Part shown: positions 12,190 to 59,384 of the stretch, piece after piece
Layout: each line of letters begins with the position of its first letter
Position numbering within the stretch: position 1 is the stretch's first letter
Source of the DNA: Acorus gramineus
Taxonomy: Eukaryota > Streptophyta > Magnoliopsida > Acorales > Acoraceae
DNA length: 64,000 nucleotides
Assembly (NCBI GenBank): GCA_030737835.1
Contig: CM060850.1
Coordinates: forward strand, 29,181,716-29,245,715
Reading direction: 5' to 3'
Position numbers and translations under genes: made by a program
The notes under the pieces: model-generated
What the model saw: the letters and a program-made list of their open reading frames with translations, nothing else
Databases searched by the model: none
Told to the model about the DNA's origin: nothing

Positions 12190-12633
12190 GCCCCCATTTG
12201 TTTTGGGAATAAGCTCTTGAATAACCTCGGATAAGGGATAAATGGTGTTTGGAAACCCCGGATAACCTCTGATAAAGTATGTCAAAATAAACAGGTATAA
12301 AGTGGTATATGGATTCCAACCAACCCTTATAATTAAAGTTATCCTAGATTATTCCACTAAAAAAATATGTGAGCTTATTGTCAAATCAACTGTGATCACC
12401 TCTTATAAATCACCTATCAAATCAACTATCATTATTTTTTCACCTTTTATAAATCATTATCTATACTTTATTCACATTTTACCCAAACAATAAAACATTT
12501 ATTCTTCCGTTTACCAATGAGAATAATTCAAAACACAACCAAACACAAAATCACTTTATCCTTATTTATATTCACTTATGCTTGAATAAATATATACCCA
12601 AGAAAAAATCTTATTCCCGTTCTAAACGGGGGC
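12190..12633. mobile_element. Tourist-like (PIF/Harbinger) MITE, family A copy 1
   Basis: The ends are GCCCCCATTTGTTT and, inverted, GCCCCCGTTTAGAA. The element is flanked on both sides by TTA (12187-12189 and 12634-12636), the 3-bp target duplication of PIF/Harbinger-type elements. It is 444 bp long and non-coding. It aligns nearly end to end with 30118-30560. Confidence 0.75.
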
Positions 12634-12919
12634 TTAGGTATAACAAATATCACCGTTTTCATTTCAAAATTGCACCAATTATCTTCAATTTATCCCGATT
12701 ATTTTTATATCAAACGGAGATAAACTGTCAATTCGATCACTTATCTTTATAACTATCTCTTATCCCACTGCTTATTTGCTTACCAAACCATCCCGAAGTG
12801 TCCGAACTTTCGTCACTAAAGCAGCGAAGAAGACAATATCATCTGAAATGGAAACAGATGTTCAAAACACACTCACCAAAAACAAAACCCACAAATTTAC
12901 TTCCCGTGTCTTCCCTCCT

Positions 12920-30117: not shown

Positions 30118-30560
30118 GTCCCCTGTTTGTTTCTGGTATAACCCCCCGTATAATTCTGGATAAGTATTTATGGTGTTTGTTTATCCCGGATAACCCCTGA
30201 TAAAGTATGCCAGAATAAACTGGTATAAAGTAATATATGGATTCCAATCAACCCTTGGAATTATAGTTTTCCTAGGTTATTCTACTCAAAGAATATGTGG
30301 GCCCACTGTCAAATCAACTGTCATCACCTCTTATAAATCACATGTCAAATCAACTATCATTATTTTTTTAACTTTTATAAATCCTTATTCATACTTTATT
30401 CACATTTTATCCAAACAACAAAACATTTATTCTTACGTTTACTAACGAGAATAATTCAAAACACAATCAAATACAAATCACTTTATCCTTATTTATACTC
30501 ACTTATGTTTAGATAAATGTATACCCTATAATAAAACCTATCCCTGTTTCAAACGGGGGC
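30118..30560. mobile_element. Tourist-like MITE, family A copy 2
   Basis: The element aligns along its length with 12190-12633 (shared landmarks: CCCGGATAACC, GATAAAGTATG, TGGATTCCAA, CACTTTATCCTTATTTATA) and ends in AAACGGGGGC. Left flank CTT and right flank TTG suggest a decayed 3-bp duplication. Confidence 0.72.
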
Positions 30561-30759
30561 TTGGGTTATGTCATGGTTTTTGTTTATAAGGATCCCACAT
30601 CAAAGTTTGGCTTTCCCACTTACACGTATAATAGAGGCAGAGTTTCACACCACACATTCAAGAGGCCCTAAAATAAAAGTTAAAATAGCTTTTAGAACTC
30701 CTTCAGACACAATAGAGAAAAAAAATATAGAATTTGGATTTTTTTTACAACTCTAACGA

Positions 30760-32708: not shown

Positions 32709-33485
32709 ATGCCTCCTAGAAAGAGAGCCCAAGCTCCCCTTTCGTCGTCCAAGAAGACGAACCCATCCCAGCCGTCCAAGTTCAGGATCCAGCACTTCTT
32801 CGAACGCCTCACACAACAGGCCGCCTCTTCCACCCCTCCAAACCTCGAAAACCCTAAAAATGCTCCAAAAACGTCCGATCACGAGAACGCCACCCAGACC
32901 ACGCCCCCTCCAGAGCCTCCAAAACAGCCTCCGACGGCCTCCGCCGATGAAGAGATCTCCCCCGAGGTCTCGAAATCGGCCCCTCGCAAGCGTTTCAAGT
33001 TCTCCCCTGGCATGGTAAGCGATTCATCTGTTCTTGCTTTTTTTAGGGTTTGTGGTTTATCTAATGCTGTCGTTTTTTTATGGGGATTTGTAGCTGATAA
33101 AGCAAAGCCAGGACGATGGGGTTGAAGAGGTCACGTGGAGGATCTCTCCTGTGAATGAGCGGTTGAAATCGGTTTCAAAGAACATGCCGGGAATGATCCG
33201 AGTCTTGTCCGATGCTTCAAAGCTGAACGTTTCGAGTCTGCGTACGTGTTCGCAAAAGGAGGTTTGAGTTTTTCTTTTTTGGTCGTTGTTGCTTGGTTTG
33301 ATGGTTTCTGAATTTGATTCGTTCTGGTCAATGTTATGGGGTTGTCCTGTTCATCTAAAAGGGTTTCTTTTCATGATGGTGATCTCAAAAAGGATTTCTG
33401 CAATGATCGTGGAAGGAAGGGTGATTCGAACAATGTTGAGGTGGTGAACCAGCGAAGCCCGTTTCGGACCCCTCCATCGATGCCT
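32709..33485 (+). other. DNA2: DNA2 exons 1, 2 and 5' part of exon 3
   Basis: Exon 1 is 32709-33014 (disordered, basic, PIP-like box). Exon 2 is 33094-33261, ending in GAG at phase 0. Exon 3 starts at 33393 after CTCAAAAAG and runs 31 codons to 33485, where the Copia 5' LTR begins. Reading on into the LTR gives one codon and then TAG. Confidence 0.8.
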
Positions 33486-36400
33486 TGTTAGTGTTAGGGC
33501 CCATTTTGAATGACCCATTCTTTGGTTGACCCAAAATTGAGTATTCATTTTAAGTCCCACATCGGTTAAAACCAATTCATTGTTTCACCTTATACATTGA
33601 GTCAAACCAATCCATTATTGAGACTTGTTGAAACAAACCCCTACGCGCGCGCACACGAGGCCCAACCCATCAACCCGTGGGTTTGGATTTCTGGTGGAAA
33701 AACTAGTTAACCGGGCGTGCGCGCTCGCACGTCGCGCCTGCACACGAGGCGGGCCGGGCCGGGCTGGGTTTGCGGGCCACACTTGGGCGCGCCCGCATGC
33801 GCGCGCAGGGGGGGGTGCAAATCCCTCTCCCTGGGCCCTTTCCGCGGGCTCGGGCTTGGCCCGTACGCGTGGGTTTCTTTTTGTCTCTCGCGACAACTTT
33901 TCAACTCCTTTTGAATTTGAATTGTTTCTAAAACCGCCACGCCACCTTTCCAAAACCGTCCGCGCCGAGATCTCTCAACGGGCGTGTATTAATTGCGCGC
34001 AATTATTTCAATTAAGTGGTCGGGTTACAATTTTAATGCACGCATTTATTTTGTCGGTTTTCCTTTTTTGTGTGCGTTGCTGTTGGACTGCCTATATAAA
34101 GGTGTCAAATGCGTCTCTCTACATCAACGAAAATCATCCAGAGCCCACCAACCACTGTCTTCTCGTCTGTCCTTTCCATTCGTCTGGTTCTCTGATCTGA
34201 GCTTCTGAAAGGATCACGCCTGTTCACTGTGGTCTCCTCGTAGCTCGCACCCCGAGGAGGCATAACCCTGGTGGTCGTATCTCTCAGTGGTAGGAGCCGT
34301 TCAACCCTGTGCGTGGGGGGGCCTTATTCACCGAGGACAGAGCGCATCTGCTCGCTTCCACCAAAACTGATATGCTTTCTAATCCTCTGTTCTTATTTGC
34401 AGAATATTTGCTGTGTTTTATATTGGTTTGAATCTGTGGCCTTACTAGGTTCTTTGCATTGCCCTGATCTTTTAAAAAAGATTTTCTAACATTCTCGGTG
34501 AATAAGTTTGCATTTTACCTAGACCTTTTTTCAAACCTCTTTCTGTTTTCAAAAATGGGTCTTGTAGAAGATTTATCTGCTAAACCGGCTTTGTTTGATG
34601 GTACCAATTTTAAAAGATGGCAGCAGCAATGTAGGTATTGGCTCACCACCCTAGGATTAATTTCTGTTTTAAGAACTGTCTTAGGTGAATCCAAGTCACT
34701 TTCTGATAAAGAGTCCACTTCCATTGACCTTACCAAGACCTCCGATCCCAAGGATGCCGATCCTGATAAAATAGCAGATCCGAAAGGAAAAACTATTGAA
34801 TTAGACGGTGCCTGGGAAGAGAAAGATTTCTTGTGCCATGGTCGAATCTTGAGTGCCTTAACCCCTGAGTTGTATGATATTTTTTGTACTACAAAATGCA
34901 CTTTTGAACTGTGGACAGAACTCGAAAAAAAATATAGTCTTGAAGATGCTGGGTTAGAAAAATATGCTGTCGGAAAATTTTTAAAATTTAACATGGTTGA
35001 TAATCTGTCTATCATGAAACAAATCGTAGACCTGAAAACTATTATTCATGAGATTAGAAAATATGGGATGATTCTTGATGACACCTTTCTTGCATACTCC
35101 ATTATTGAAAAATTGCCTCCCTCCTGGTCTAATTTTGCTATCAAACTTAAACATCGTAGAGGTATACCTGTCTTGAATGATATTTTGACCACTATTAGGA
35201 TAGAAGATGAGCATAGGCTTCAAGATAAGGTCTCTAAACTTCCTAAAGAGTTTTCTGCCAAAGCACACATAGCCGAAGGTTTTAAACCCAAGTCCAAACC
35301 TTTTAAAAAGAATGGGGCAGCTAAGGGTCATGTAAAGCCACAGTTTAAAAAGAAAACCAATGATGAAGCTGGTTGCTACGTGTGTGGGAAGAAAGGGCAT
35401 ATTGCAAGAAGTTGCTACAAACGAAAGACCCTTCCTCAAAATCTGAATTATAAAAGCAACCATCCTACCCAGAAGGACTCAGAGAATAAGGTCCAAGCGA
35501 ATGTGGTGATTCATGACCCTGCACCCTCTTCCTCCCAAATTAGGTTTGTCACTGTCCATCCTGAGTTAAACTTAGCTTGTCAATCTACTGATTGGTGGAT
35601 AGACACCGGAGCAAATGTACACCTTTGTTCTGATAGATCCTTATTTACTTCCTATCAGGCCATTGATGGACATGTGAGAATGGGCAACAACTCTGCTGCA
35701 CGTATCATTGGAGAAGGACATGTTGATCTACTCTTCACGTCCGGAAATGTTCTATCACTTCAAAACGTGCAACATGTTCCTGATTTGAGGAAAAACTTAG
35801 TTAGTGGGTCGCTGTTGATACAGCAAGGTTATAAACTAGTTTTTGAAGCAAATAAGGTTGTAATAACTAGGTTTGAAACCTTCGTTGGGAAAGGCTATGT
35901 GTGTGATGGTTTGTTTAAGTTGAATATTATGTTTGAATGTTCTTCCTCCATCTACTACTGCTTTGAATGTTGAATCTCATAATATGTGGCATGCTCGTTT
36001 AGGACATTTAAACTTAAGTACCATAAAAAGAATGATGTTTCTTGATTTGATTCCTAAATCTCGTCTTAATGAAACTTCTAAATGTCATATCTGTGTGCAA
36101 GCGAAACAGCCTAGAAAACCTTTTAAATCTGTTGATAGAATTTCTGAACTGTTAGGCTTAGTACATAGTGACATATGTGAAATGAATGGTATGCTTACTC
36201 GAGGAGGAAAAAGATACTTCATAACCTTTATTGATGATTTTTCAAAATTTTGTTATGTGTATTTGTTGCGTTCAAAAGATGAGGCTCTAGAATTTTTCAA
36301 AATTTATAAGGCAGAAGTAGAAAATCAATTAGATAGAAAAATCAAAGTGATTAGGTCTGATCGAGGAGGTGAATATACATCGAATGAATTCTCTAAATTG

Positions 36401-39400
36401 TGTGAAGATAATGGCATCATTCATCAGACCACCGCTCCCTATTCACCCCAATCCAATGGTGTGGCAGAACGGAAAAATCGGACCCTGTGTGACATGGTTA
36501 ATTCCATGTTATCAAGTTCTGGTTTATCTGAAAATTTTTGGGGAGAGGCCATATATTCTGCTTGTCATATTCTAAATAGGGTTCCCCTTAGAAATTGTGA
36601 TAAAACTCCTTATGAATTGTGGAAAGGTAGGAAACCCAACCTTAGTAGCATCAAAGTTTGGGGATGTTTGGCAAAAGTGAATATTCCTCCTCCCAAAAAG
36701 AAGAAGTTAGGACCAAAAACAATTGATTGTGTATTTGTGGGCTATGCATATCATAGTGCTGCATATAGATTTTTAGTCCTACAATCTGGAATTCCTGAGA
36801 TCAGTCCCAACTCAATTATTGAGTCTAGAGATGTTGTCTTTTTTGAAGATTCTTTTCCCATGAAAACCACAAATTCTAAAGCTATTGGACATAAATCTAC
36901 TGCTGATCTAGGGGCTTCTTCTTCCTTTGTTCCATCTCTTGAGAATGAACCTGAATTAAGAAGAAGTAAGAGACCTAGAGTAGAAAAAACATTTGGAGAT
37001 GACTTCCTCACATTTCTTATTGAAGATGATCCCTTAACCTTCAATGAAGCTATGTCATCTCTAGATGCATATGGAGAGAAGCAATTAATAGTGAATTTGA
37101 TTCCATTCTTCATAATAATACTTGGGTTCTTACTTCTCTCCCTCCAGGTAGTAGAACAATTGGGTGTAAATGGATCTTCAAAAAGAAATTTCGTCCAGAT
37201 GGCTCTATAGAAAAATACAAGGCTAGGCTAGTAGCAAAGGGCTTTAAACAAAAACCTGGTGTGGATTATTTTGATACATATTCTCCTGTCACTAGAATTA
37301 CCACTATTCGGATACTGGTCGCATTAGCTTCAATTCATGGTCTTGAAATCCATCAGATGGATGTCAAAACCGCTTTTTTACATGGAGATCTCAATGAGGA
37401 GATCTATATGGACCAACCTGAAGGATTTGTGGTTCCTGGACAAGAACAGAAGGTGTGTAAACTCGTGAAATCTCTGTACGGGCTCAAACAAGCTCCTAAA
37501 CAGTGGTATGAAAAATTTGATAGAGTCATCGCTTCTTTTGGTTTTAAAAATAATGAGTATGACAGATGTCTTTATATGAAAGTGAAATCTGATGCTTGTG
37601 TTATCATTTGCCTATATGTTGATGATATTTTAATTTTTGGGTCTAATCAGGACATTATTGAAGAAACCAAAATTTTTCTTTCTAAAAACTTTGATATGAA
37701 AGATCTTGGTCATGCAAGTCTAATTTTGGGAATAAAATTAGTCAAGACTTCATCTGGTATTACACTTTCACAGTCTCACTACATTGAGAAGATACTAAAA
37801 AAATTTGATATGTATGATTTTTCACCTGTGCATACACCATATGATTCATCAATTAAGTTGAAAAAGAATTTGGGAGAACCTGTTGGACAGGAATTATATG
37901 CACAAATGATTGGAAGTTTAATGTATCTTATGAATTGCACTCGTCCTGATATTGCATATGCTGTTTGTAGGCTAAGTAGATACACAAGCAATCCTAATAA
38001 AGAGCATTGGACTGCACTCACACGTGTATTTAGATATCTGCGAGGATCTATTTCACTTTCATTACATTATACTGGTTTTCCTCCTGTACTTGAGGGTTAT
38101 TCTGACGCCAACTGGATCTCTGATTCAGTTGATATTAAATCAACCAGTGGGTTTGTGTTTTTGATAGGTGGTGCAGCAATAGCATGGAGGTCTGTTAAAC
38201 AGACAGTAATTGCTCGTTCCACAATGGAATCAGAGCTTATTGCATTGGATATTGCAGCTTCAGAGGCAGAATGGCTTAGGAATCTGTTGAGTGAGATTCC
38301 ATTGATGGGAAAGCCTATTCCAGCAATTTCCATAAGATGTGACAACAAAGGTGTGATTGCAAAATCATTACAAAATAATGATAATGAGAAAATGTCTAGA
38401 CACTTGCGCTTGCGATATAAATCAATTCGGCACCTGATTTCTCAGGGGATAATTACTCTAGAGTTTGTGAGATCCGAGAGAAATCTCGCAGATCATTTCA
38501 CAAAAGGACTTGTCAGACGACTTGTCCATGAGACATCGAGGGGGATGGGGCTTCAGCCCATTATATAAATTACCTACAGCGGGCTCCCTACCATTGTGAT
38601 TGGAGATCCCATGAAGATGGTTTTCAAGGGGTTAACGAAGCTGTATTGGTAAACCTGTGAGTACTGTAGAGGAAAACTCCTCTAACTCATCCCTATGATA
38701 TCAGTACTATACTGTGGCGGAAGAAGGTTGAGCTTACGCTCTTAATGGGTTCAAGTCCTTTTCGGACAGGGTGTGGCCCACGCAGGCACCCTGGAGAACT
38801 CACCTATATGAGTGCACGGACGTGAGGCCGCGTTCTTTGAGATTTGGGCTAAGTCTCTAAGGCACTCAAGAAAGGATACGAGCACATGGCCGTAACGTGC
38901 TAACCCGCAGAACAGGACCCATATCCTGTACCGTGTGTGTGACTAGTGAATTCTGGCTTAAGGGGTCGAATTCAAGGACATGGTCTATTCAGACTTCTCA
39001 GTTGGATCTAGTTTACACTAAGTGAAGGTTCAAACCCAGAAGGTACCTTCATCTATTACATGGTATAAGATGCTCAGATCATATTCTTTCTTCTACAATT
39101 TTAGGTCAAGGGGGGGATTGTTAGTGTTGGGCCCATTTTGAATGACCCATTATTTGGTTGACCAAAAATTGAGTATTCATTTTAAGTCCCACATCGGTTA
39201 AAACCTTCATTGTTTCATCTTATACAGAGAGTCAAACCAATCCATTATTGAGACTTGTTAAACCAAACCCCTACGCGCGCGCACACGAGGCCCAACCCAC
39301 CAACCCGTGGGTTTGGATTTCTGGTGGAAAAACTAGTTAACCGGGCGTGCGCGCTCGCACGTCGCGCCTGCACACGAGGCGGGCCGGGCCGGGCTGGGTT

Positions 39401-42400
39401 GCGGGCCACACTTGGGCGCGCCCGCATGCGCGCGCAGGGGGGGGGTGCAAATCCCTCTCCTCGGGCCACTCTGGGCCCTTTCCGCGGGCTCGGGCTTGGC
39501 CCGTACGCGTGGTCGCGACAACTTTTCAACTCCTTTTGAATTTGAATTGTTTCTAAAACCGCCACGCCACCTTTCCAAAACCGTCCGCGCCGAGATCTCT
39601 CAACGGGCGTGTATTAATTGCCCGTGTTAATGTGCGCAATTATTTCAATTAAGTGGTCGGGTTACAATTTTAATGCACGCATTTATTTTGTCGGTTTTCC
39701 TTTTTTGCGAACCTTGCTGCTGGACTGCCTATATAAAGGAGTCAAATTCGTCTCTCTAAAACATCAACGAAATCAGTCCAGAGCCCACCCACTGTTCTCT
39801 TCTCGTCTGTCCTTTCCATTCGTCTGGTTCTCTGATCTGAGCGTCTGAAAGGATCGCGCCTGTTCACTGTGGTCTCCTCGTAGCTCGCACCCCGAGGAGG
39901 CATAACCCTGGTGGTCGTATCTCTCAGTGGTAGGAGCCGTTCAACCCTGTGCGTGGGGGGGCCTTATTCACCGAGGACAGAGCGCATCTGCTCGCTTCCA
40001 CCAAAACTGATATGTTTTCTAATCCTCTTCTTATTTGCAGAATATTTGCTGTGTTTTATATTGGTTTGAATCTGTGGCCTTACTAGGTTCTTTGCATTGC
40101 CCTGATGCCTTATCAACCTGTTGAGGTAAGGATGTGTTTACTTGCCTGCTCTAATCAGTGAAGTACTGACAATTCTATTCCACTGTTTCTTTAAATTGCA
40201 GTCTGTTGGCGGTGGTGTTTGTAAAGAGTCATTGGAGCAGCTGGGTCTGCATCAGCACAGGAAGGTCTCTCAAATTTTGTGTAGAATCATATATGACCTC
40301 AGTAGTTTTGTTCTCGTCGTGTTCTATTATTTAATTGTTTTTTTTATGCCAAACCATCTTCCTTCTCTTTCTTATTGAAAAATTGTGATGTCAACCATTT
40401 TTTTTTTTTTTTTGACCAAAGGTGGGAGTATCCTAAACCATATAAAAATTGGAAGACTCCAAAAGCTTAAGGTATCTACCTTTTAAATATACATGATCAA
40501 TTAAAAAGAAAAAAAACAACAGACAATTGAAGGAAAGAAACAACTATAGCCAAAACCAGGCAACTACCACAATACGGCCATTCCCCTCCAAATCAACTGT
40601 ATTGTATTGACACTGACAGGTAAATATCCAAAATATTGGTTGTGGGTGGGGGTGTGTGGTTGTTTAAGGTTTAGCTTTTGCAACCATATACACTACGAAT
40701 ACAAGGAGACTAATCAATAAGGAACTTCCTGTCATTTTGGATACATGCACTATTCTCCTCTCGAGCTGTTCCCCCAGGCTTTTAGACAATGTACATAATA
40801 AGGTTTCCTGTAAAAGTGTGTGAGGAACGATTTAGATAAACTTGCCTCTTCTTCCATTTTCTTTCTTTGTTTTTTTTTTTTGAAACCAAGAAAGGGCTTT
40901 CCTATTTGGACAGCCATCGACCCAGTCTCTTGTAGACATGATGAATCAACCATGATTTCCTTTTTCCCATATTGCAGGCTTTACTTGAACTTTTAGATCA
41001 AGTTGAAGATGTCATTTCAGTGAAAGAATCAGTATCCGATGATTCAGGCTCGTGCTTGCTTGAGAGCTGTGATACCGTAGGCACGGACATGCATTTAGAA
41101 GCCAAACGTGTGGAAACAGCCGTTGTAAATGTCCCGTCCAAAAGTGTTCACAGTACTTATGGTCAGAATTTTCTGATATTGGAGGTCTGCTTCTTATTTG
41201 CTATTTTTTGCTCTAAGGGACTGCTACATTTCCATTGCTGTGGTATCATATGTTGCAATTTTTTTTTGTGCAGGTGTCTGAGACACACAGGAACTCTGAT
41301 TCAACCCATGGCCAGTTCCCTGTTAAGGTGCTCAAAAAAGGTGGCCCCATGTTTTGATGCAATGTGTATGAGACACTTATTTATGAAAACAACTATTTGC
41401 CTTGTTTTTATCAGGTTCTTCGCTTGTTGAATGAACTAAGTGGTCAAGAGAGGGCTTTGCATTTGTGCGATGAATGGTAATTTTAAATATGATGTTGAAT
41501 AAATTGTATGTATATTAGAGTTTTTGATGCTCCTTTTTATATAGTTGTTGCTATTCTGGAAACAAAATAGATGGATCAGCTTTAATTGTATGACGAGTGA
41601 GATTTTTCTTGGGTAAGATCGTCAGAGAGTCATTTGAATCACTTTTGGACAGCCATCGACCCAGTTTCTTGTGTGAGAGTTAAATGCTCATGGAAAAAGT
41701 TTAGAAAAAGAAATGGTGGTTCATTAGAATCACTTTTGCATCAGAGATGAGAATGTGGCCACGTAATTTTAATCCTTCTAGAAGATAATATCAGAAGCCG
41801 TAGGAATGCTTCTGTTATGGTTTAGAAAATTGTAGTTTGAAAAGCATTGTCAGTATTTCTGAATGTCAAGAGAATGGTTTCTTATTGTCGGTATTTCTAA
41901 AGACGTAGGAGTGCTTCTGTGACAGTAGTTGTTGATGTCCATCTCCTACATTTCCATTTCTTAATCTTGGCTTCATGATATTTCTTTGTAATGTCTTCTT
42001 TTTCTATTCTGAGCCCTTTAGATGCCATTTAGATATTTTTATACTAGTTGTTTCTCTTGCAGTGCTGGCTTAATTCAAAATCTGGTATCTTTTTGGCTTG
42101 TAAGACTTTAGAGTCCAGAATAACCAAATTTAATCTCGAATACGGGATTTGTCATTGAAGGTCAATCTCATAGATTTGTTTTGTTCGGAAATGTGCATTT
42201 TGCATCTTTTGTTCATTAATTGTGCTCATAGTATTCTTATAAGCAAGTTTTTTTTATCCATTTTTTCTTTCTTATTTCACTGTTTTTATTTAGGTTCCAT
42301 ACCATCATTGGGCCGGGAGATACTGTGATTGTTATTGGTGAATTTGATAAATATGGGAAATGTGTCATTGATCGTGAGAGCAATCTTGTTATTGTTCATC

Positions 42401-45400
42401 CTGACATACTCTTGTCTGGAACTCGGGTAACTATTCTGGAGTCTGGCTTTGTTCTTATAAATTTTGACTTGTAGTTTTGATGAGTTAATGGATATGCATA
42501 TTTGTATTTTTGTAGTTCCAATATTTCTTTTTCAGTGCATCTATCATTTTCTTTATACGCCCGAATGGATATTAATGAATTTAAAAATACATCATAGGTT
42601 GCTGCTAGTTTCAGCTGTGCCAGACGTGCTGTTCTTGATGAGAGGTTAAAGTCCACTGAACACTCTACATCTGCATTAATTGGTACCTTGCTTCATCAGA
42701 TCTTTCAGGTTTGCTGCCCAGGAGTCGCCCGTTAATAATCTTATATTTGATCATCGAAAGCAAGGATTGAATTCCTGTAGTCAGTGCTATTATTTGGATT
42801 GGAGTATTCTGATTCAATCTTTTATTAATGCTTCTATTCTTTTCTAGGCTGCATTGCTGAAGGATTTACCAACAAGAGAGTTCTTAGAAACATATGCCGG
42901 AGTTGTGATAAAGAAAAACATCGAGAATCTGTATGCATGCGGAGGTGTTTATTTTAATCTATTCCTGCATTGCATTAATTACAAAGGGAGTGCAACTCTT
43001 CTGTTGTGAGTTACTTAAGAATGCTTGATTGCTGTTTCTGTGAGCATGACATTTTGGATGGGCAATTCAAATTACTTATTTGAGCCTTGGAACTTTGGTA
43101 TGTAGTTATAGTGTATATTCTAATCTCAATTTTCTTATGGACTGTGCAGTGAATGAAAAAGATTTCTACACAATGCTCATTGATGTAATACCAAGAATTT
43201 TGAATTGGCTCCGTTGTTACAAAGTGTCACAAGTATGTAAAAATTGTTTATTACTAATTATTGTACATATCCAGATTTATTAACATAATGTTTCATTTCA
43301 GTAATGTAATATGAAATTAATTCGCTGCATATATTTGTAACATATGTTTGTAACGATGAAAACAATAATTTGTTAGAAATAGTTCATTGTAACATGCTCA
43401 TCATGAATATTTTTGTGATCAAGCTGCCAATTAGCGCGGCAACTCATTTATTTCATGGGTGGCATAAGAAGTCTTTTTCCTTTTGGTTTCTCTGGATTCC
43501 AGTTTCAACTGTTTGTTTTCAGATTATGGTTCTTCCACATAGCAGAATGAAATGTTTCTGATGTAAAATCTCTTTGTATACTATAACTATAGTTTGCTGA
43601 TATTCTTGGTCTCAAATTTTTTTAGGGTTCTTTGGGTGGTTCTTGGATATCAACATAGTAAGCATTAAGCAGTTAACTAAATGCATGTAAAATGTGATAA
43701 TACATTTAGATTTAGGGTCAGTAAGTTGATCTTGTGTCATTTTTTCATGATTTGGGATCTTGTGCATGCTTATGTGCATCTGGTCCTTTTTTATAATTGT
43801 CCTATGTAAAATTGAGGTGACATCTCGCTTGAGGCTCACAATTCATAAGATATCATATCAGATAAATGTTTTGTTGTGGAAGAAGGTTGATGTTCTTTTT
43901 GTCCCAGTTGTTCAGGTGGTCCTTGTAGGCATCTGTGAGAACCCTCGCTGAGTAACAATGAGAGAAATTTCTATTTATTTTAACTATTATTTTCTTGATC
44001 AAGGAATAAATTTTCTAATGGAAATTCTTTGCAGGATTCAGCGCCTTGCGTCGAATTTGGAACTAATGAACAGAAAACTGTCAGCATTACTGAGGCAAGA
44101 ATTTATATTTAGGCCACTGGGGCTAAGCATTTACATGCAGGCAGGCATGCATGCCTTCTTATACCAATGCATGCCTATGCACTTGTTTACATATATCACC
44201 AGTTGAAATCTATTTTACCTTATGTTGCCTTGTTTCATCTATTTTTTTTCTAGGTTCTTTTGTAGGTACTCATTCCTACAAAGTTTTAAAAAGCTATATA
44301 TCACAATAACCATAGCCAACATTTTAACATGACTTTCTTGCCAGTTGCTACAAATTACTCTTAGTTTTTTTCCCCATGATTTGATACATAATCTGAGTTG
44401 GCCTAATAATTGGCTATCTATGATTACAGGTTATAGATATTGAAGAGATGGCATGGGCTCCTAGATATGGACTGAAAGGAATGATTGATGCTTCTGTACG
44501 TGTACATATGGTTAATGTTGACGGTTCAAGTGAGAAAATTATGCCTTTGGAATTCAAATCTGGAAAAGGAACCAGTGGTCAGGCAAGTTCAAGGTCTGGC
44601 TAATTTTTTTTCTATCTCTTAAGTAAAATGAATAGGATTGATATGATTATGATATAGAAGAATTTGATACTTGTTATTAGTTAATTACTCTGCTATGACA
44701 ACCATATTTACCTTATTGTTTGAATTGTTTTATGTTCAATATTTTTAGGACATTGAGATCTTCCATACTGCTTTGACTTACAAAATCATATTTTGATCTT
44801 TTTTATTGCAAGAAGTTCTGTTGCAGATTTTGTCACTATTAGATCTTGTGGTTGGATATTCTTCATTTAGATTGCATTTATTATCACTTTTTTTTTTACT
44901 TGTTGAATTTGTAACCAGTTTTGGATATCATAGTCTTTACCAATTCGGTTTAATTTCAGATGTAAGATTTCTTGTAGTTACGTGGGAGGAGAATAACTCA
45001 TGTTAGTTTTTTTTCCCCTACTTTTATCTTCTTAATTCTTATGGTGTTATTTGATCATATTATAATGGCAAGAAGATAGAAGAGGGCTGGGGTAACTGAA
45101 AATATTTGGTTAAATTAAACTTTTTTTTTCTGGAGATGTTTGAAGGTTTCCTGATTGACATATTTTGAGGATTGCTGGCTAAGGCTCTTCTGGAAAATTA
45201 TTTTTAAAGATTTTTTTGAAGAAGAATTATTTATTATTTCCAATGGTTTAGAGGATGGATGTCTCTTTTTTCCATTATGGTGAATCAAAGTGGCATTCTG
45301 GACCATATTTGTGAGGATATTAATTTTGTTAATACATCTGGAAAGATATGAAGAAGTTCATCTCATTACTGGTATGTAGGGAAAACCCCCATCAAGTGTT

Positions 45401-48400
45401 TCACTCACAACTTCTATTACTATTTTGATTGAGAATAACCTTTTAATCAATGTTCAGTTGATTTCTGAAACAATGGTGATAAGGATGTCCAGTTGTTCTG
45501 TGTTGTTTAAAGTTTTGGTGTTATTTCATCGCCTAATGTACTGCCCCTTTTGCAGTCTGCTATGGAACATTGTGCTCAGGTGATATTATATACTCTTCTG
45601 TTGTCTGAAAGGTGAGTCAAGCATGGTTATGTTTTTTGCTTTATTGCATGTCTATGTATTTTTCTGATTCTTCTAAGTGATGCTTTTGTTTCCTTTACCT
45701 GGTCTGTTTGTCTTGCATGATATGAAAGTTAAGACACTTCTGATTGCGTTCAATGCTTGCTTGCATGGCTTGTGCATGTTTTCAGATACCAGAAGAATGA
45801 TATTGACTCTGGCCTTATTTATTATCTTCATACAGATCACACAAAGGTAATTTTACACATTCATAAGTTTCACAATGAATGCAGATGCTTAAGAATATCC
45901 AAGCCTTTTCTTGTTTTCTGCAGGGTATCAAAGTTCAGAGATCTGATTTGGTTGGACTAATCATGCGACGTAATGAGCTTGCTACAGATGTCTTGAAGGC
46001 ATCAACTATGCAGCATCTACCACCAATGCTAAGGGTACTGGCATTGTAAATTTACTTTTCATAACTCCTAAACTTAGGGTGTTAATCTGTACGGCCCTAT
46101 TTTGTTACCCCAAACATTGCCCAACAATGTATATACACACTGTCAGTAGTGGCTAGGCTGATAAGAGTGATAGGAAATGTATATGCACCACTTGGGCTAT
46201 GTTCGAGTTGATTTTTGGTGTGTCCTTTAGCATTTTCCAAAACTAAATGACCTTTGATTTTTTATTGCTTCTCTCACCGCAGAATCCAACTATGTGCAAG
46301 AGTTGTCGCCACCTTAGTGTTTGTACCATCTATCATAAGGTATTTTTTTAAATCTAAGATGCAATATGTCTAAATTTCATTCCTAGCCACAAGACAATTG
46401 CAATATGTCTAAATTTGCAGATTCAGTGTTTGAAAAATCAGATTCCCCTTTAATTGTTTTTAGATAATCACATTGCACTTTCCAAGATAGTGTTGAAAAA
46501 ACTGTTTACATTGGTTACATGTGTGAAATGCATGTAAAAAATTTCCTTAAGGCTGGGTAACTGGATACAATCAATCTGGCATGATCACTTTCCAAGAATC
46601 AATCTGGAATGATTGTTTCCGAATTCTAATGCTACAGAAGTTATCCAACTTTTAACCTGTATGATCTTTGTGCCTTTGCTTGACATAGATACCTTTTAAA
46701 TTTTTGAATTTTGGGTTATGTATTGGTTGGTGATTTGGTTACTAAAGCTTGTGAGTTGCCACCATCAATGTGCTCCCTGCTCTGTTGGCCCTGATTTGCA
46801 AATCTAATAGTCGCCGTATTGCCTCATCTCGCCTACCTACATGGACTAATCTTTTTTGTTTAGCTTTTAATTGAGTTTCACTTTTTACTTTTGGTGTTGA
46901 ATCTGATACTTTATTTAAAAAAGGCAAATGGGGGCGACACTGAGAGCAGTGGTCTTGATGCTGTGTTTGATGCACATGTGCAACACCTCACTGCAGCTCA
47001 TTTGAATTTTCTTAAAAAATGGGACCGATTGATTGATTTGGAAGCTAAGATTACACAGGTATACATTCTGAGCTGCTCTGCTGTGCTTTCAGCATACAAG
47101 AAAATATTCATTCTATTTATTTCTTTTGTATTTTAGGACTCCAGGAAAGCAATATGGCGCCCGCAGACTATAAAGAAGGAACAGAAGAACAATTGCCTCT
47201 CTTCCATAATTCTTGATGCTTCAAATGGATTCTCATGCAAGACTTCTAAAGATTCCCAATTCACTTATCATTTTGTGCATCAAGATTTATCCCTTGATTC
47301 TGAAATGCACATAGGAAAGGAAGGGGATACCTTAGAATCTATCAAGGGAAACTTGGAATGTGCACTAAAATGCGGGGACTATGTGGTATGTTTTAGCATT
47401 CTTGTTACATATATGTTATTATGCCATGTGATAAGTATTATTTTGTTTCTTTATCTAAAATTGCATGGACACATGGACTCGTTGGAGTTATTCAAGCCAG
47501 TGTATTTGCAGCCTTAACTACTTGGAAGTTGATACCAGTTTGTTCTCATCATACATTGATCTGCATATCTTCAGAGTTCAAGTACTAAACGACTGTAAAT
47601 TATGTAATCCTTGGTTTATAATTCCAATTTTTTACTGATTAATTTATTTTTAATTTCTCTCATAGGTGCTTAGCACTGAATCTGGGCGTGTGGCGGTTGC
47701 AAAAGGAGTGATTATTGACATCAGCCGTATTCGTGTTTCAGTAAGTATTTGTTTCTTTAACAAGTCTTTTCATATGTGTTCTCTATATATGTAATCCTTA
47801 GGGATGAAGCACGACATCTAGATTCTGTGCTTGTGGATGTCAGCCTGTCACATGCTCATAGATAATTTTCAAAACTAAATGTTTTCATAAAATTTAAATT
47901 TAGGTGTCTTTATCACGACGCTTGCGACTTCCAGGAAGTGAACCTTCTTCAGAGGAAAAGGATCTTCTTCAAGAAGTTTGGCGGATTGATAAAGATGAAG
48001 TTGCTTCATCTTATGCCATAATGAGGTATTTCCAATCTTCTTAGCAGAGTACTATTTTTTGAGAGAGCAGACATCTGGTCTTTGCAGAATTATTTTTATT
48101 AATTGAATCTATGTATAATTTTGACATGGACGTGCATGTGTTTTCATATTTTGAAGGTTTAACCTTATACAACTATTTGTGCAAACCACACAAAGTCTTC
48201 GTCTAAGGAAAATGATTGTGGATCTTGAGGTTAAATATCAATTTTGGCCAACATTTGTGTCTTCTGGATTTTCTGATGTAACTTACATTTTCTTATTACC
48301 TTTCTTGTTCTTCATGAATGATTTTTCCACAGGCACCTAGGTTTGATAGTGGGAGTATATTTAGTCAAGATCCTGCATTATCTTATGTTCAGTCAAAAAA

Positions 48401-51400
48401 AAATTTGAATGTTGATCAACGCAGGGCTATCCATAAGGTTGATTATATTTCTGTTTTCTTGTTTATATGTTTGTCTTGCACCCTCTCATCAATTTGGATT
48501 TAACTGTTAAATGGAAAATAATGATTAATTTACTATATTAGACAGATACATTTAAGCGTTTTATTTATTTTTTGTTTTCAGATTCTTACAGCAAAGGATT
48601 ACACTCTCATTCTAGGAATGCCTGGAACTGGCAAAACCTCAACTATGGTGCATGCTGTCAAGGCATTATTAATGAGAGGTTCTTCCATTTTAGTTACATC
48701 CTACACAAATTCTGCTGTTGATAATTTGCTTATCAAATTGAAAGCTGAGGTTAGTTTTATCCTATCTATAATTTAAGACGGTGTGTGTTTAGTGATAAAG
48801 GGAGTTTTGTGCAATCTTGCTGTATAGAATTTCTAATTGCAATCTTCCAAAGATCAACTTGTGCTTGAACCGATGTGTACTTGGACAATCTGTTTGTTCA
48901 TTTCCTTGAATATTGATAATAAGTGCCATGCAATCTCACTAAATAATATAACAAAATAGTCTGCAAAACAAGTCTGATTTTATGCATAGCAAACAATTTT
49001 TTTTATAGTAATAATAGTGAACGAATTGTTAATAGAGTTTGTCCATCAATTTGTCACATAATATACTGTGACCCTGTAACAGTTCACAATTTGATTTTTT
49101 TTTCATATTCTACCAGTAATTATATATCACTCCACTACATAAAAATCATGCTGATGATCACTCAATATTGGTGTCTAATCAGTTCAAATTTTGGGATATT
49201 TATTGTTGAAGTTTCTTTTAAACTCTAGACTTACAGATGGTGAAGTACAGATTTCGCTGTACACAATTCATGTGATTTAATGTCACATTGAGTGCTTATC
49301 AGTTTTTTGAATGCATGCTGCAGAAGATATTTCAGAAGAAAATACTTTTATGATTTTTCCCATAAGAACTTTGCAACAGTGACTCTTTATGCCTAGCGCC
49401 GCATCTCTAGCCTATCCAAGCACAGTTCATGTAACATATCCTCCATTTATTGACACTGAATATTAGGTACTTGTTTCACGGTGGATACTTGTTTTCAAAG
49501 ATCAACACATTTCCATATATAGAAATTCAACTAAATGTTGTTTGTGGAATTCATCAATTCCTATAAATTTATTTGAATCATGGAATTATCTTCAATGCAC
49601 ATTCAGTGGTATCAGTAACACCAACATTGACTATCAAGGCTTAAATAAAGCAACTCTTACATTCTGGGTCTTACCATGTTCAGAAGAGCCACCATTTGCA
49701 TCTTTGATCAGAGCTCAACCTTGATGTATCATTTATCCAATTCATTTATCGCCTATGCTTCAATATAGAGTATTGGACCCATTTATTATGCATGACAAAA
49801 AGTTTGATTTCTTCATCTTCCACTATTAGCTCTCATCCAGTTGTGGAGTACTCTGCCTAGCCTTTTTATTTCATTTATTTTATTCTATTTGTAGAAAAGT
49901 GGGAAGCTCTTCAATCTTTTCTGCGAGAAACTGGATGAGTTTAGATTTGAAGGGCATGAGCCCAAGACAAACAGAATTAACAAGTGGGTGGCTGGAGCAT
50001 ATGAACAATTTTGAGCAATTTTAATATGATCACATGGGAAAAAAGACAGTTATAGGTAACTAAAGTGAAAATATTAGTATCTTTTGTAATTTTCTGGATT
50101 TTTTTGCATATTTTGGGGCACTTTAATATCTTAGGTTGGCTGCTTTCATACATATGTCAGTAGTTGTACTTTTGAATCCTTCCTATTTTTCCAAATCCTG
50201 TGCTGCTCAATGTTTCCGTTGGTCATACCACCGTGAACTTGTCTTTTTTTAATCAAGCCTCTTAGTTGACCTATCAGCTTTTACAGGGAATAGATTTCAT
50301 GCGTATTGGAAGAGATGAAGCTGTGCATAATGACATCCATGGGCACTGTCTTTCAGGTCTGATGATCTCTGCTCCTTGTTCATTTTCTTAACTGGCACAT
50401 ATATTTAAATTCTCTCTTTCTGCAGCCATGGGCACAGACAACGTACAGGACATTAAACAAAGGATGGAGACTGTCAAAGTTATTGGAGTTACCTGTTTGG
50501 GTATTTATCATCCCTTGCTTTCAAACAAGAAGTTTGACATCTGCATAATGGATGAAGCTGGACAAACCACTCTTCCTGTATGTGCATTTTCTATACCAAA
50601 AATAATTTACTTTCATAATTCGTGATTGTGTATATATTATCATGCATGGAAATTTGTGAATTTTTGACATTCTATTAGGTAGTCAAACTGTTTTAAAGAA
50701 TACAAATCATTACAGTAACCAACTCCAGTAGAACACTTGTTTTGGGCTGCAGAAAAACTTCATTTCTTTGCAATATTCAACTAGTATTATCAGAATGCTG
50801 TTGAATATATAGCACTTCAAAATACTCCAAATGCATGCATTGAACAGTTTTATCGTGCTTCATCATTTTCTATTGAATGAGAAATGCCTGATGTATAATT
50901 TGAGAGCATTCGACCTCTTCTTTTTTCTCCCCCCCCCCCCCCTTTTTTTTTGGGGGGGGGGGGGGGGGGGGAGTTGTTGTGTTGAGAAGGTGCCAATCAT
51001 ATGTGATGGACTTGTTTGAGTAAAACTCAACTTGAACATATTATGATGCTCATCATATATGACTGGAATCTTGTATTCATGATGTTTCTAGTATATGTGG
51101 TTCCATTTTAAGTTTTTCAATTATATTATGCTGGTTGGAGTATTTGATATTGTGGGTTGCATAGCTTTTGAAAGCAGAATACATTTTTCTAGCTCAATTT
51201 TGGTCTTGGCCATGTAATATTCTGGCTTTATTTCCTGGTACTGAACTTTATGTGGTCAGGTATCTTTAGGGCCTTTGATGCTTGCTTCAACATTTGTTCT
51301 TGTTGGAGATCATTATCAGCTACCGCCACTTGTTCAGGTTTGCAGCTGACGACTTTTATAAATTTTTTTTAACTATCTACCTTATTCTGATTATTTTAGG

Positions 51401-54124
51401 ACTGCTTATTTTACTAGAGCACAGAGGCTCGAGAAAATGGAATGGGAAGTAGTTTATTTTGCAGGCTCTCTGAAGCGCATCCAGAGGCAATTTCAGCATT
51501 ACAATTTCAGGTTCATTTGATCATGAAATTTCTAAGTTCCTGTAAGATGATATTTCTTTCTTGACATTTTTCATACCAATCAAGTGTCCATATAATATCA
51601 TTTGCAGTATCGCATGTGTGCTGGTATTATGGAACTATCAAATGCCTTAATATATGGCAACAGGCTGCGATGTGGCTCACCAGAGGTAGAAAATGCAAAG
51701 CTGAGCTTTTCCAAGGAAATGCCTGTTACATCATGGTTAAGAAAGGTAACTTTTGCAGTTAATCCTCCTGTTTTTCTTTGTAGTCTGTTACTCATAAGCT
51801 GCATGTGTTGTTGAAAAAAAAATCTCATCTCAGAATATGTGTTGTAACCAACCACCTCTTGGCAAATGTGCCCCCCTCTTCACTTTGGGGGGGGGGGGGT
51901 GTTGTTCCTAGATTTGAGTCTTAATCCTATTGATAGGATGAGATTTAACCAGTAAATAAAACGAAATGCGCACCAACCAAAAGATTGAATGTTGTAGGTC
52001 ATACAATTGTTGCTTTGTTAAATGCTAGGACAGATGATGCCTTGTGCCTAAGTTGTTTGAAGTGTCCTATGTTTAATACATTGGTGACAGTTTACTTCTA
52101 TGGGCCATCTCACCATATGATCTGTAGTTGAAAATTTTAACTTACCAAAATTGGAGCAACATTTGAATGGGCTGTTTTACAGAAAGCACCCATTCATCCA
52201 GCCCACCCAGGCTTGAATGTCAGCATTGAAGCAAAGAATTATAGGATTTAACCATCTATTTTAAAATTTTCATTCCAATAAGAATTTTATCTGCTGAAAA
52301 CATCTATTTCTATTTGGGCTTCTGGTTTAACTGTCTGGTCGTAAAACAGCTCTCTGATAAAAAATAATGTCCATGGAATTTATCACTTTCAAAATTTCAG
52401 CAAAACATAGAATACAGTGTTTTCATTTACAGTTTTTCCTTCTAGAACCTATCATTTATCCAAATTCCAAAAGCTGATAAGCGCTATATGACACAAACAT
52501 CTTATCGCTGATGTGCTTGTGCATTTTATGCTAAAATTCTTAGTTCCAGTGAGTTGATACATCCATACATTTTCACTTATCCTGGACTTTCTTTTGATCA
52601 ATTTATGCAGGTCATGGATCCAAACAAGCCGGTGGTATTTATTAACACAGGTTGGTTTTTGTTTGTCTGTTTGTGTTACCAGTGATATTATTCACTTCCT
52701 TTTCTTTAAGATATGTTATTTGTTTGGACTTCATTCTTCACTTCATTCTTTCAGATATGTTGCCTGCTCCTGAGATGAAAGAACAGAAATCTGTAAATAA
52801 TCCAACTGAGGCATACATTGTATCAGAGGTACAACACAGACAATTTGACAATGACATGTGGGAGTTGGGATCATTCTGCATTTTTATCCCTCATTATTTT
52901 TTTCATCACTTAAATTGATATTTTTTAAAAGCGTTCTTAAGAAGCCAACATTGGTATTAGTGTGTTCACTTCTAAGTAACTCGAGTGTGCATTTTTTTTT
53001 TTTCCCAACAAATTTTGCTTCACAGATGGCTGGAGAATTGGTGAATTGTGGCATTATTGTGGATGAAATTGGTATTATCACCCCTTACAACTCTCAAGCG
53101 AATCTCATCAGACGAGTTGTTTTCACTGCTGTGGACATACATACCATTGACAAATACCAGGTTATTCTGAGCATCTGTGTACATGAACTTTTACAAAGTA
53201 TTCTGCTAATTTTAGACTTCTTAAAATCATATTCTGGGGATCACATAATCCTAACCTGTTGATTTACTGTTTATTGTAGTGGTTGACTTTATTCCATAAA
53301 TATAGATTATTTTTTAAATTTTTTATATTATTTGGCTAATTTTACGTGGGTTCCTTGCTGGTTTTGCTAAGCATAAGATTCTATTTTTCTCTTTCCCTGC
53401 TCTGAATATGAGACTGTTGAAAAATGTTTAGCTTACGGTCCATTGTTGATGATACAGGGAAGGGATAAAGAATGCATTCTGGTGTCCTTTGTGAGATCTA
53501 GTGAAAACATTAGAGCCTGTGTTTCTTCGCTGCTTGGAGACTGGCATAGGATTAATGTTGCTCTTACACGGGCAAAGGTAATTGAAATATTTCCATTGTT
53601 CATTTTTTTCCCTGCAGGTGCCATATTAGTCTGTCGCGTCAAAATTTTCCTTTTAGGCTTGTACTGAATTTTTTGGATGTGATGTCATTTTTCTCCCCTG
53701 AACTTATCATGTGCACATGTACCATAGATGCAGTTGCACATTGGAATTTTTATACCATACATGCTTCACTGTTTGTGAGATCTAGTGAAAACATCCATTG
53801 CCCTGCATGTTTCCTTGTCAAGTACTCATTTCTATATGATTTTTTCCCCTTAAATCTGTGGTTTTCTTTCTTTCTTTTCTGGTCCTTCCATGAGTTTATC
53901 AGTATGTGGATCTTTCCCTTTTCCTATTTATTTCTGGCGCTTGTCATGTTTCATTGGGTGGTGTGATATGTCAACGTAGTTTTTATTTGATTTTGTTTTA
54001 TTCTTGTTTTTTCATCCCATGTTTGGTTAGAAAGATTAATAAGCAAGTTTTAATAAGGTGTGAGAAATCCCAAGTTAGGAACTACTGAATCTAGCAACAG
54101 ATTAATGACCGGAAGTTAGCTTAT

Positions 54125-54188
<64 letters not shown>

Positions 54189-54533
54189 GATATTCTGCTT
54201 GAAAATATCCATTTATCTGGACATGGTTAAGAAACAATAAGATTGAGTTCCTTTTGCTCAAATCAATCTTTTGCTACATCTTAAAGTCCCATATTCTTCT
54301 CATTATTATGGTGGACTTTCATACTAACTTGGTGTTCCAGCAATTTAAACATGCATTCTTTTTTTTGGGTGGTGCAGAAGAAGTTGATCATGGTTGGTTC
54401 GTGCAGAACTCTTTCGAGGGTTCCTTTGATGAAGCTTCTAATAGAGAAGGTTGAGATTCAGGATGGAATTCTACACATCTCCAAGAATGATATCCATTAT
54501 TGGGGGGAGTTAAGAAAATGCCCTCAGAATTAG
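32709..54533 (+). CDS. DNA2: DNA2 replication ATP-dependent helicase/nuclease, exon 3 interrupted by a Copia element
   Basis: The 34 exons sum to about 3873 nt, 1290 residues once the transposon is left out. DNA2 trims long flaps in Okazaki fragment maturation and resects breaks in the nucleus. A PIP-like KFRIQHFF sits at residues 24-31. The iron-sulfur cysteines appear as FSCARR and [10 protein letters not shown]. The RecB-like nuclease is shown by [10 protein letters not shown] and PLEFKSGKG. The superfamily 1 helicase has [10 protein letters not shown] (about residue 895), [33 protein letters not shown] and NVALTRAK. The coding sequence breaks after codon 189, where the element begins; its first codons include a stop. 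All other exons are open with consensus borders. Skipping exon 3 (108 bp, phase 0/0) would restore the frame, so the gene may still be functional, but that is inference. Confidence 0.9.
33486..34467 (+). repeat. 5' LTR of the Copia element
   Basis: It begins TGTTAGTGTT and ends near TTGCCCTGA. It contains a very GC-rich block with CGCGCGC runs and a TATA box at about 34092, and it aligns with 39119-40105. No standard tRNA-Met primer binding site was seen directly after it. Confidence 0.85.
34555..35973 (+). CDS. Copia gag and protease, frame broken at the end
   Basis: Starting at MGLVEDL, the frame encodes a Copia gag region (typical FDGTNFKRW start), a nucleocapsid CCHC knuckle [14 protein letters not shown], and the aspartic protease site [13 protein letters not shown]. 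The frame then leaves the polyprotein near 35930 and stops at 35973, while the integrase continues in another frame from about 35933. A small indel there is the likely cause. An upstream in-frame start at 34498 exists, but the gag start is more family-like at 34555. Confidence 0.8.
   Translation: MGLVEDLSAKPALFDGTNFKRWQQQCRYWLTTLGLISVLRTVLGESKSLSDKESTSIDLTKTSDPKDADPDKIADPKGKTIELDGAWEEKDFLCHGRILSALTPELYDIFCTTKCTFELWTELEKKYSLEDAGLEKYAVGKFLKFNMVDNLSIMKQIVDLKTIIHEIRKYGMILDDTFLAYSIIEKLPPSWSNFAIKLKHRRGIPVLNDILTTIRIEDEHRLQDKVSKLPKEFSAKAHIAEGFKPKSKPFKKNGAAKGHVKPQFKKKTNDEAGCYVCGKKGHIARSCYKRKTLPQNLNYKSNHPTQKDSENKVQANVVIHDPAPSSSQIRFVTVHPELNLACQSTDWWIDTGANVHLCSDRSLFTSYQAIDGHVRMGNNSAARIIGEGHVDLLFTSGNVLSLQNVQHVPDLRKNLVSGSLLIQQGYKLVFEANKVVITRFETFVGKGYVCDGLFKLNIMFECSSSIYYCFEC
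35933..37210 (+). CDS. Copia integrase and pol linker, frame broken at the end
   Basis: It holds the HHCC zinc module (HARLGHLN ... CHICVQAKQ), the integrase core with FIDDFSKF and SDRGGEYTS...[20 protein letters not shown], and the GKRP-like linker. Homology to reverse transcriptase switches frame near 37075, consistent with a single-base loss. The stop at 37210 is therefore not the natural end. Confidence 0.8.
37261..38568 (+). CDS. Copia reverse transcriptase and RNase H
   Basis: The frame is open from about 37080, so the ATG at 37261 is not a true start. Motifs: [31 protein letters not shown], the catalytic [10 protein letters not shown], the SDANW and ESELIAL boxes of RNase H, and a C-terminal [14 protein letters not shown] block. 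It ends at 38568. About 550 bases of non-coding sequence lie before the 3' LTR. Confidence 0.88.
39119..40105 (+). repeat. 3' LTR of the Copia element
   Basis: It begins TGTTAGTGTTGGG right after the polypurine tract at 39107-39118 and ends at 40105 before the TGCCT duplication. It differs from the 5' LTR by base changes and by indels, for example a missing 15-bp stretch before CGCGACAAC and an extra GGGCCACTCT. Confidence 0.85.
40111..46339 (+). other. DNA2: DNA2 exons 3 (remainder) to 17: linker, OB/nuclease region, Fe-S cysteines
   Basis: Exon ends: 40111-40125 (last five codons of exon 3), 40202-40264, 40978-41184, 41274-41327, 41415-41476, 42294-42426, 42598-42708, 42848-42944, 43150-43232, 44035-44094, 44430-44582, 45556-45611, 45786-45846, 45924-46034 and 46283-46339. 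The introns after 44094 and 44582 start with GC (GAG|GCAAGA and CAG|GCAAGT), the rest with GT. The nuclease core lies in 44430-45846. Confidence 0.82.
46924..54533 (+). other. DNA2: DNA2 exons 18-34: helicase half and C-terminus
   Basis: Exon ends: 46924-47058, 47137-47385, 47666-47740, 47904-48025, 48157-48229, 48333-48437, 48582-48749 (Walker A), about 50287-50356, 50426-50577 (DEAG box), 51260-51337, 51418-51510, 51608-51745, about 52611-52650, 52755-52828, 53026-53160, 53458-53577 and 54378-54533 with the TAG stop. The 1.5-kb intron after 48749 holds no recognised element. A (TA)n tract at about 54127-54182 lies in the last intron. Confidence 0.82.
50929..50971. repeat. C14-T9-G20 homopolymer run in a DNA2 intron
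   Basis: About 14 C are followed by 9 T and then about 20 G, giving a perfect C/G hairpin with a T loop. It lies in the intron after exon 26. A second G run of about 11 is at 51888 in a later intron. Confidence 0.8.
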
Positions 54534-55016: not shown

Positions 55017-55184
55017 TTCTTGGTGCCCTTTCAATCATTGGTGAGTAGAAATCATGGACTTTGAATCTGGCTCAGTAAATCAATTGCATGGTAGCTGTAG
55101 TTCTTGGTGCCCTTTCAATCATTGGTGAGTAGAAATCATGGACTTTGAATCTGGCTCAGTAAATCAATTGCATGGTAGCTGTAG
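55017..55184. repeat. Perfect 84-bp tandem duplication
   Basis: The 84 bases from TTCTTGGTGCCC to GGTAGCTGTAG occur at 55017-55100 and again at 55101-55184 without a visible difference. The unit is not coding. Confidence 0.85.
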
Positions 55185-58480: not shown

Positions 58481-59384
58481 TCTCTCCCTTCTCTCTGTCC
58501 CTTCCCCAACAAAACCCAAACTTTATTTCTCCCTGAAAATGCACTAAAAACAGCCTGAACAAGCAACCGCAAGATCTCTTGCATTTCTAAAGTGGGTTTT
58601 TTTCCCCCATCTTTTCTTCTAGTTGGGGTTGTATGTTTGGTCTTTTGAATTTCTTTAGTGGGTAGTTTGGTATATTTTTTGTTTCTGCGCTTATATTGTA
58701 GAATTGTTTAGATTAGATTATTATGATTTTTTTGGGTAAAGTTGCAACCATATGAAATGGGTTCACACTTCACAGTGAGTTCTCAGCTGGAGTGGTTTTG
58801 GGTTGGTCTTTGTTTCACATCTTTGTGTTAGTGGTTCTTGGAAGATTTGGCTTCTCTGGTTATGTTCACTCATTCATCACTGCATCAGTGTATGATGTTG
58901 AGTTGGTTTTGCCTGCTTTTGTTAAAAAAAATGATATAATGTTAGATCTTGATGATCCTTGCTCTACATGATTGGTCAATATGTAGTAACCCCCGTTAAC
59001 CATGTTAATTTTTCTTTTTCTTTTTGATGTTATAGTAGCTCATTTAATGTTGAACGTTCATGTTTTGAATGCCCACATGTTCGTTTCCCGGTAGTCGGAC
59101 TGATCACTTGAACTTTGAATTTGTACTAGTTTAATTCGATTTAAGCAATGTATCAATTAGGATCAACTTATCCCCCTTATGATGTTGGAATTCTTAAGTA
59201 TGAAGTAGAAAAGAAAGTTTGGTCTTTCTTACTTTACAAATTGAAAGTCGTTGTTTTGAGATATCTCATGCTGATGTGATGGACTGTCTCTCTATTTTCT
59301 TGATCACTATTGTTCTGCTATGTAAGGTTGAGAAAAGGAAGCCTCCATAATGTTTTATGTGGTATAATTTTTTCTCAGGACATC

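Follow-up and report, generated by a model that had tools for sequence, protein, structure and literature searches.

The effects of retroelements that land in coding exons have been described in Arabidopsis, and the published insertions show both rescue and truncation of the host transcript. The element Evelknievel is located in exon 13 of CMT1, where three ways of splicing it out are reported, and one of them (25%) restores the reading frame. According to the same account, the silencing mutants cmt3 and kyp2 yielded no transcripts spliced across the element (PMC6238269). A new exonic insertion of the Copia element ONSEN at AT1G03710 leads to exon skipping, although its authors judged a functional protein unlikely. 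For the 237 insertions reported in the ONSEN lines, under the control condition, exon skipping was recorded in 5 cases and 3' truncation in 38 (PMC8501995).

The locus described here is a DNA2 gene with a Ty1/copia element in its third coding exon. It resembles CMT1 with Evelknievel in having a retroelement within a coding exon, and at CMT1 the whole element can be spliced out. On the other hand, the rescue of CMT1 was established by RT-PCR and needs CMT3/KYP silencing (PMC6238269), whereas for DNA2 it would be a prediction from the sequence. In addition, the best in-frame route for DNA2 drops the whole exon, and DNA2 itself is reported to be essential in Arabidopsis (PMC6843274). With ONSEN the locus shares a young Copia element in an exon, a situation for which exon skipping, intronization and truncation are all described. 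The ONSEN insertions were induced and come with RNA data, in contrast to the DNA2 insertion, which is known from an assembled genome (PMC12112155, PMC8501995). The DNA2 insertion is a plausible further case of a known phenomenon, though not yet a demonstrated one.

The DNA2 gene and its split exon

The window (the entire 64,000-nucleotide stretch that was analyzed, positions 29181716-29245715 of contig C4 in a 398.6-Mb assembly of 137 contigs) contains a plant, JHS1-type DNA2 gene with 34 exons on the + strand (32709-54533). The gene model is based on automatic models that were checked by eye and then re-scored, with boundaries set by eye. Automatic models with 61, 38 and 36 exons were over-called and were reduced to 34. 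The exons proposed at 45380-45475 and 49895-49987 were removed for low support, and an automatic reading of 51425-51510 in another frame was rejected, as it had missed a weak acceptor and a frameshift-free reading exists.

The frame is open to the final stop, giving a product of 1290 amino acids with the two parts of exon 3 joined and 1254 without exon 3. Both a Dna2 nuclease domain and an SF1 helicase are present, as in the DNA2/JHS1 helicase-nucleases. Pfam recognizes Dna2 (PF08696, 4.5e-61) and PDDEXK_1 (PF12705, 8.2e-07), together with AAA_11/AAA_12 (PF13086, PF13087) in the helicase. The product also has PDB matches among DNA2 chains (mouse 5eaw and its relatives), the E value being 3.4e-45 with the nuclease half and 5.5e-91 with a draft version of the helicase half; none of these PDB matches provided an orthologue usable for exon 3.

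Exon 1 (32709-33014) carries the start codon and the N-terminal region, and exon 2 (33094-33261) ends in the donor GAG/gtttga. Exon 3 is found in two parts, a 5' part (33393-33485) and a 3' part (40111-40125, donor GAG/gtaagg), and is followed by exon 4 (40202-40264) and by exons 5-34 (40978-54533), which encode the nuclease and helicase in an open frame to the stop. All of these are on the + strand. A 6.6-kb Ty1/copia element (33486-40105) lies between the two parts of exon 3, flanked by a 5-bp target site duplication, TGCCT, at 33481-33485 and 40106-40110 (+ strand), a length typical of copia. Read into the LTR, the exon frame gives ...PSMPC and then a stop, which is the second LTR codon. 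Together the two parts of exon 3 make 108 bp in phase 0, and joining the end of exon 2 (33261) to the start of exon 4 (40202) would keep the frame at a cost of 36 residues. The original prediction had described this anatomy, namely the element within a coding exon, the TGCCT duplication, the immediate stop, the frame-neutral exon and the 33 other intact exons, and the gene model bears it out in each respect, with the Dna2, PDDEXK and helicase AAA domains in place.

A skippable exon 3 is, however, the default expectation, because symmetric phase-0 exons are ordinary in this gene: 22 of the 34 exons, and 20 of the 32 internal ones, start in phase 0 and have a length that is a multiple of three. 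The splice sites of exon 3 are the extremes of the gene. With an approximate plant splice matrix, its acceptor scores 1.2 and is the weakest of the 33 (the other 32 have a median of 5.1), while its donor scores 7.5 and is the strongest of the 33. Since the acceptor is so weak, the exon may have been only weakly included already before the insertion.

Several other features are found around the gene. A perfect 84-bp tandem duplication (55017-55184) lies just downstream of DNA2, and a repeat of about 400 bp is present at 12242-12639 and 30170-30566, the two copies being 84-88% alike and 18 kb apart. The exons at 1825-2778 (- strand) presumably belong to a BUD13-like splicing factor and those at about 59300-63700 (+ strand) to a plant putative methyltransferase. 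No Rfam family matched the window at gathering score.

All ten matches of the nuclease query in the 398.6-Mb assembly are located in the DNA2 gene. The helicase query gives nine matches (11 candidates scored), six in the DNA2 gene and three elsewhere at 32-43% identity, and the DNA of exons 1-3 has one other match, of 58 bp. No second DNA2 was found in the assembly with the nuclease and helicase queries, and no second haplotype of the locus with the exon 1-3 DNA query. As far as these queries reach, there is no intact second copy, which the original prediction had named, together with transcripts that stop in the LTR, as speaking against it. As DNA2 is reported to be essential in Arabidopsis (PMC6843274), a plant homozygous for the insertion would need some product; a heterozygous carrier would need none from the insertion allele.

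The element and its borders

Two direct LTRs enclose gag, integrase (rve) and RVT_2 domains, recognized by Pfam in the copia order. The coding region consists of three open pieces on the + strand. The first (34555-35967) contains gag (Retrotran_gag_2), a weak zinc knuckle and Pol_BBD. The second (35924-37204), in a different frame, has GAG-pre-integrase, integrase and an SH3-like domain, and the third (37048-38562), in a frame differing from that of the second, has the reverse transcriptase RVT_2. The frame-breaking length change in the first internal piece compared is also present in 1 of 22 other copies; that in the second is common to at least one of eight, and the window copy has no private gap there. 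Because these changes are common to other copies, the element was probably already defective before it moved, or else acquired them by conversion. The interior is a mosaic: the segment at 35201-36700 is nearest to a copy on contig C1 (1 substitution), while the segment at 36900-38540 differs from the C1 copy by 19 substitutions and is nearest, among eight copies, to those on C127 and C10 (5 each).

A primer-binding-site-like stretch is located directly 3' of the 5' LTR (34492-34506, + strand). Thirteen of its nucleotides are perfectly complementary to a segment inside each LTR (34323-34335 and 39963-39975), compared to a best complement of 11 nucleotides for 2,000 random 20-mers from the element. 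All eight other 5' LTR copies checked have the self-complementary LTR motif, and in each of them the 15 nucleotides that follow the LTR show little or no change. The putative primer-binding site is complementary to the element's own LTR, and a tRNA match was judged by eye to be absent. By this arrangement the element is of the self-priming type, a TAR-like Ty1/copia with a broken polyprotein frame, where TAR-like refers to the primer-binding site. Among plant Ty1/copia elements, the TAR lineage is predicted to be self-priming and, as it is described, also shares the 5-bp duplication and the copia domain order; the window copy is unlike that lineage in its broken frame and in a 3' LTR that is 24 bp short (PMC6317226).

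The 5' LTR (33486-34491, + strand) runs from TGTTAG to CTAACA. The 3' LTR (39119-40105, + strand), preceded by a polypurine tract (39108-39118, + strand), lacks the outer 24 bp of the 5' LTR, including the CTAACA terminus, and directly abuts TGCCT, so that complete TG...CA ends are not found on both LTRs. The usual terminus is also missing in 2 of 13 other 3' LTRs (L006 and L013). Since L006, on contig C7, is 20-odd bp short and ends within one base of the position seen in the window copy, it seems that the element at times integrates with its U5 end shortened. Both flanks were read for five other verified LTR pairs, of which three have an exact 5-bp duplication, one a duplication with a single mismatch, and one, the L006/L028 copy (C7, about 6661513-6668153), a 53-bp target duplication. 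The combination of a short end and a 53-bp duplication in that copy suggests an unusual integration route.

There is also a difference in LTR length. The 3' LTR exceeds the 5' LTR in length, for example with 1029 against 989, in all eight verified pairs (the window, L004/L011, L006/L028, L007/L030, L009/L021, L016/L027 and, judged by match length, C2 and C1). In six pairs the gap comes mainly from 9-48 bp deletions in the 5' LTR, and some deletions are found in the 3' LTR too. The longer 3' LTR could reflect slippage during copying of the 5' LTR, in a sample picked by similarity to the window 3' LTR. L022 and L008 (C43:4916834-4926957) were rejected as an LTR pair, as L022 has no element leader behind it and the spacing is wrong. 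L022 resembles a solo LTR that sits in a duplicated segment next to a complete element; its flank resembles that of L008 rather than the leader, and it has its own 5-bp duplication.

Age of the insertion

The two LTRs of the window element differ by 27 substitutions over 961 aligned bp (2.8%, K2P 0.029) and by 9 indels. The original prediction was right that they have diverged, but it took the divergence as a sign of age, and a comparison with the family (28 other LTRs, taken from 38 further matches on a list for which 40 of 524 candidates were scored) argues against this. In the family alignment, both states occur in other copies at 16 of the 26 sites that differ between the LTRs. The remaining 10 are private, six of them in two ambiguously aligned short stretches and four clear. 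The differing sites of five other verified pairs are likewise largely common to the family (18/24, 9/12, 10/11, 20/27 and 11/20). The window LTRs are 2.7% apart in this alignment, compared to 2.2-2.5% from their nearest other LTRs, and the within-element distances in the five other verified elements (1.1-2.8%) overlap with the distances between LTRs in general, whose median is 3.0%. LTR divergence was rejected as a clock on these grounds, the pair being no closer to each other than to other LTRs and most differences being shared. Because most differing sites are common to other copies, with the same mixture in five pairs, the LTRs do not date the insertion; the alignment indicates that they carry old family polymorphism via gene conversion or recombination. 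A limit on LTR dating has been warned of in general, although conversion between elements is described as rarer than conversion within an element (PMC7251063).

The internal region is, from these comparisons, the better clock. An internal piece of 1,500 bp, compared with 22 copies (of 24 others fetched, two partial ones being dropped), shows a single private substitution and is 0.07% away from its nearest copy. A second piece of 1,641 bp, compared with eight copies chosen from 39 other matches, has two. The total of three private substitutions over 3,141 bp corresponds to 73 ky (15-215) at 1.3e-8 per site per year, 136 ky (28-399) at 7e-9, and 382 ky (79-1116) at the slow rate of 2.5e-9, and with the four private LTR sites included the estimate at 1.3e-8 is 105 ky (42-217). 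These ages would be too young if the internal region had been converted by other copies, and too old insofar as fewer copies were compared for the second piece. The insertion is recent by this measure, the two faster of the assumed rates together spanning about 15-400 ky. LTR-LTR divergence can thus badly overstate the age of a copy, with 2.8% between the LTRs here against about 0.1% private internal change.

The young age changes what the intact exons can say. About 10 lesions would be expected in a dead gene at the naive LTR age, but only about 0.7 at the internal-region age, with the indel ratio assumed. The probability of seeing no lesion under neutrality is about 0.5 at the point estimate of the internal age and 0.13 at its upper 95% bound. 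Because the insertion is recent, even a dead allele would be expected to have kept its exons intact, and the survival test that they might provide is uninformative. The earlier argument that diverged LTRs together with intact exons demonstrate survival of the gene does not hold.

Possible transcripts and the state of the allele

An enumeration of in-frame, stop-free splice routes, confined to splice sites outside the deep interior of the element, gave 12 entries. Four of these are degenerate, having no exon bases between acceptor and donor, and eight are usable. Joining of exon 2 to exon 4 has the highest score of the eight. The 3' LTR, however, provides an acceptor (ttatttgcag) that, with the exon-3 donor, would define a chimeric LTR-exon "poison" exon of 85 nucleotides (40041-40125, + strand) with a TGA stop at 40122-40124. 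Its predicted score of 13.8 (6.4 for the LTR acceptor and 7.5 for the exon-3 donor) exceeds the 13.1 of the best internal exon and hence those of all 32. Since this pair of sites outscores every internal exon, the sequence predicts that a harmless skip would have to compete with a stop-bearing exon.

The preferred reading, with a probability of roughly 0.4, is a leaky exon-skipping allele. A Ty1/copia element with a broken polyprotein frame would have entered exon 3 recently, in the single DNA2 gene that the searches of the assembly located. An mRNA with the whole of exon 3 would be impossible unless the element were removed from the transcript. Some transcripts would have exon 2 spliced to exon 4 and encode a 1254-residue DNA2 lacking 36 N-terminal residues; others would include the 85-nucleotide stop exon or end in the element. 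The amount of functional DNA2 would be set by how much transcription reads through a silenced element, as for Evelknievel in Arabidopsis CMT1. The open frame, the rank of the exon 2-4 route among the eight, the weak exon 3 acceptor, the lack of a second DNA2 in the assembly and the published precedents count for such a rescue. Against it count the score of the poison exon and the finding that skipping is rarer than truncation in the ONSEN lines. Of the original proposal that exon skipping rescues DNA2, the frame-keeping route stands, while its survival argument has failed and a competing exon has appeared in the LTR. Exon skipping is possible but contested, and about as likely is that the insertion allele is a recessive null in a heterozygous plant, with an intact allele supplying DNA2. 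The youth of the insertion (three private substitutions over 3,141 bp) and the high-scoring poison exon would fit such a null, and with no second haplotype in the assembly an empty allele would be invisible there; the clean in-frame route counts against it.

Other outcomes are considerably less probable. A putative promoter in the 3' LTR, with a TATA-box-like sequence at 39729-39739 (+ strand), might drive an N-terminally truncated DNA2 of 1103 amino acids from the in-frame AUG kept at the LTR-exon junction (40105-40107), with the nuclease and helicase domains downstream of it. This is improbable, as an upstream AUG at 40012 with a short ORF of 24 codons precedes that start. A bacterial-type promoter scan of 33300-33600, a type not relevant to a plant, found none. 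It is quite improbable that the transcript uses one of the other open, in-frame routes, in which some of exon 3 is retained or LTR codons are included (such as exon 2 to an LTR acceptor before 40087, or exon-3 donors after 33440 or 33443 to exon 4); CMT1 is reported to be reconstituted across Evelknievel via odd sites at the element border (PMC6238269), but here all seven such routes score below the exon 2-4 route. Early decay of a DNA2 that is dispensable or has been replaced would also leave the exons intact over so short a time (probability about 0.5 if neutral), yet no second copy was found in the assembly and the gene is reported to be essential in Arabidopsis (PMC6843274), making this a very improbable account. 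Least probable of all is an assembly artefact in which a read of the element was joined into the gene. The missing outer end of the 3' LTR could hint at one, but the matching 5-bp duplication at both borders argues against it, as does the C7 copy with its 53-bp target duplication, whose end within one base of the same LTR position indicates that the family has such ends.

Within the leaky-allele reading, a more specific and rather unlikely version is that an apparently single-copy, presumably essential DNA2 gene runs on a 6.9-kb composite intron. Its output would be conditional on silencing of the element and on read-through, because the LTR acceptor would otherwise force inclusion of the stop-bearing exon. 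If this is true, the dose of DNA2 would be an epiallele of retrotransposon silencing. An allele that works would let one test in nature how quickly an essential gene can have one of its coding exons turned into an intron, and whether DNA2 falls when the element is no longer silenced. An allele that fails would be a recessive-lethal candidate that the reference assembly presents as a normal gene.
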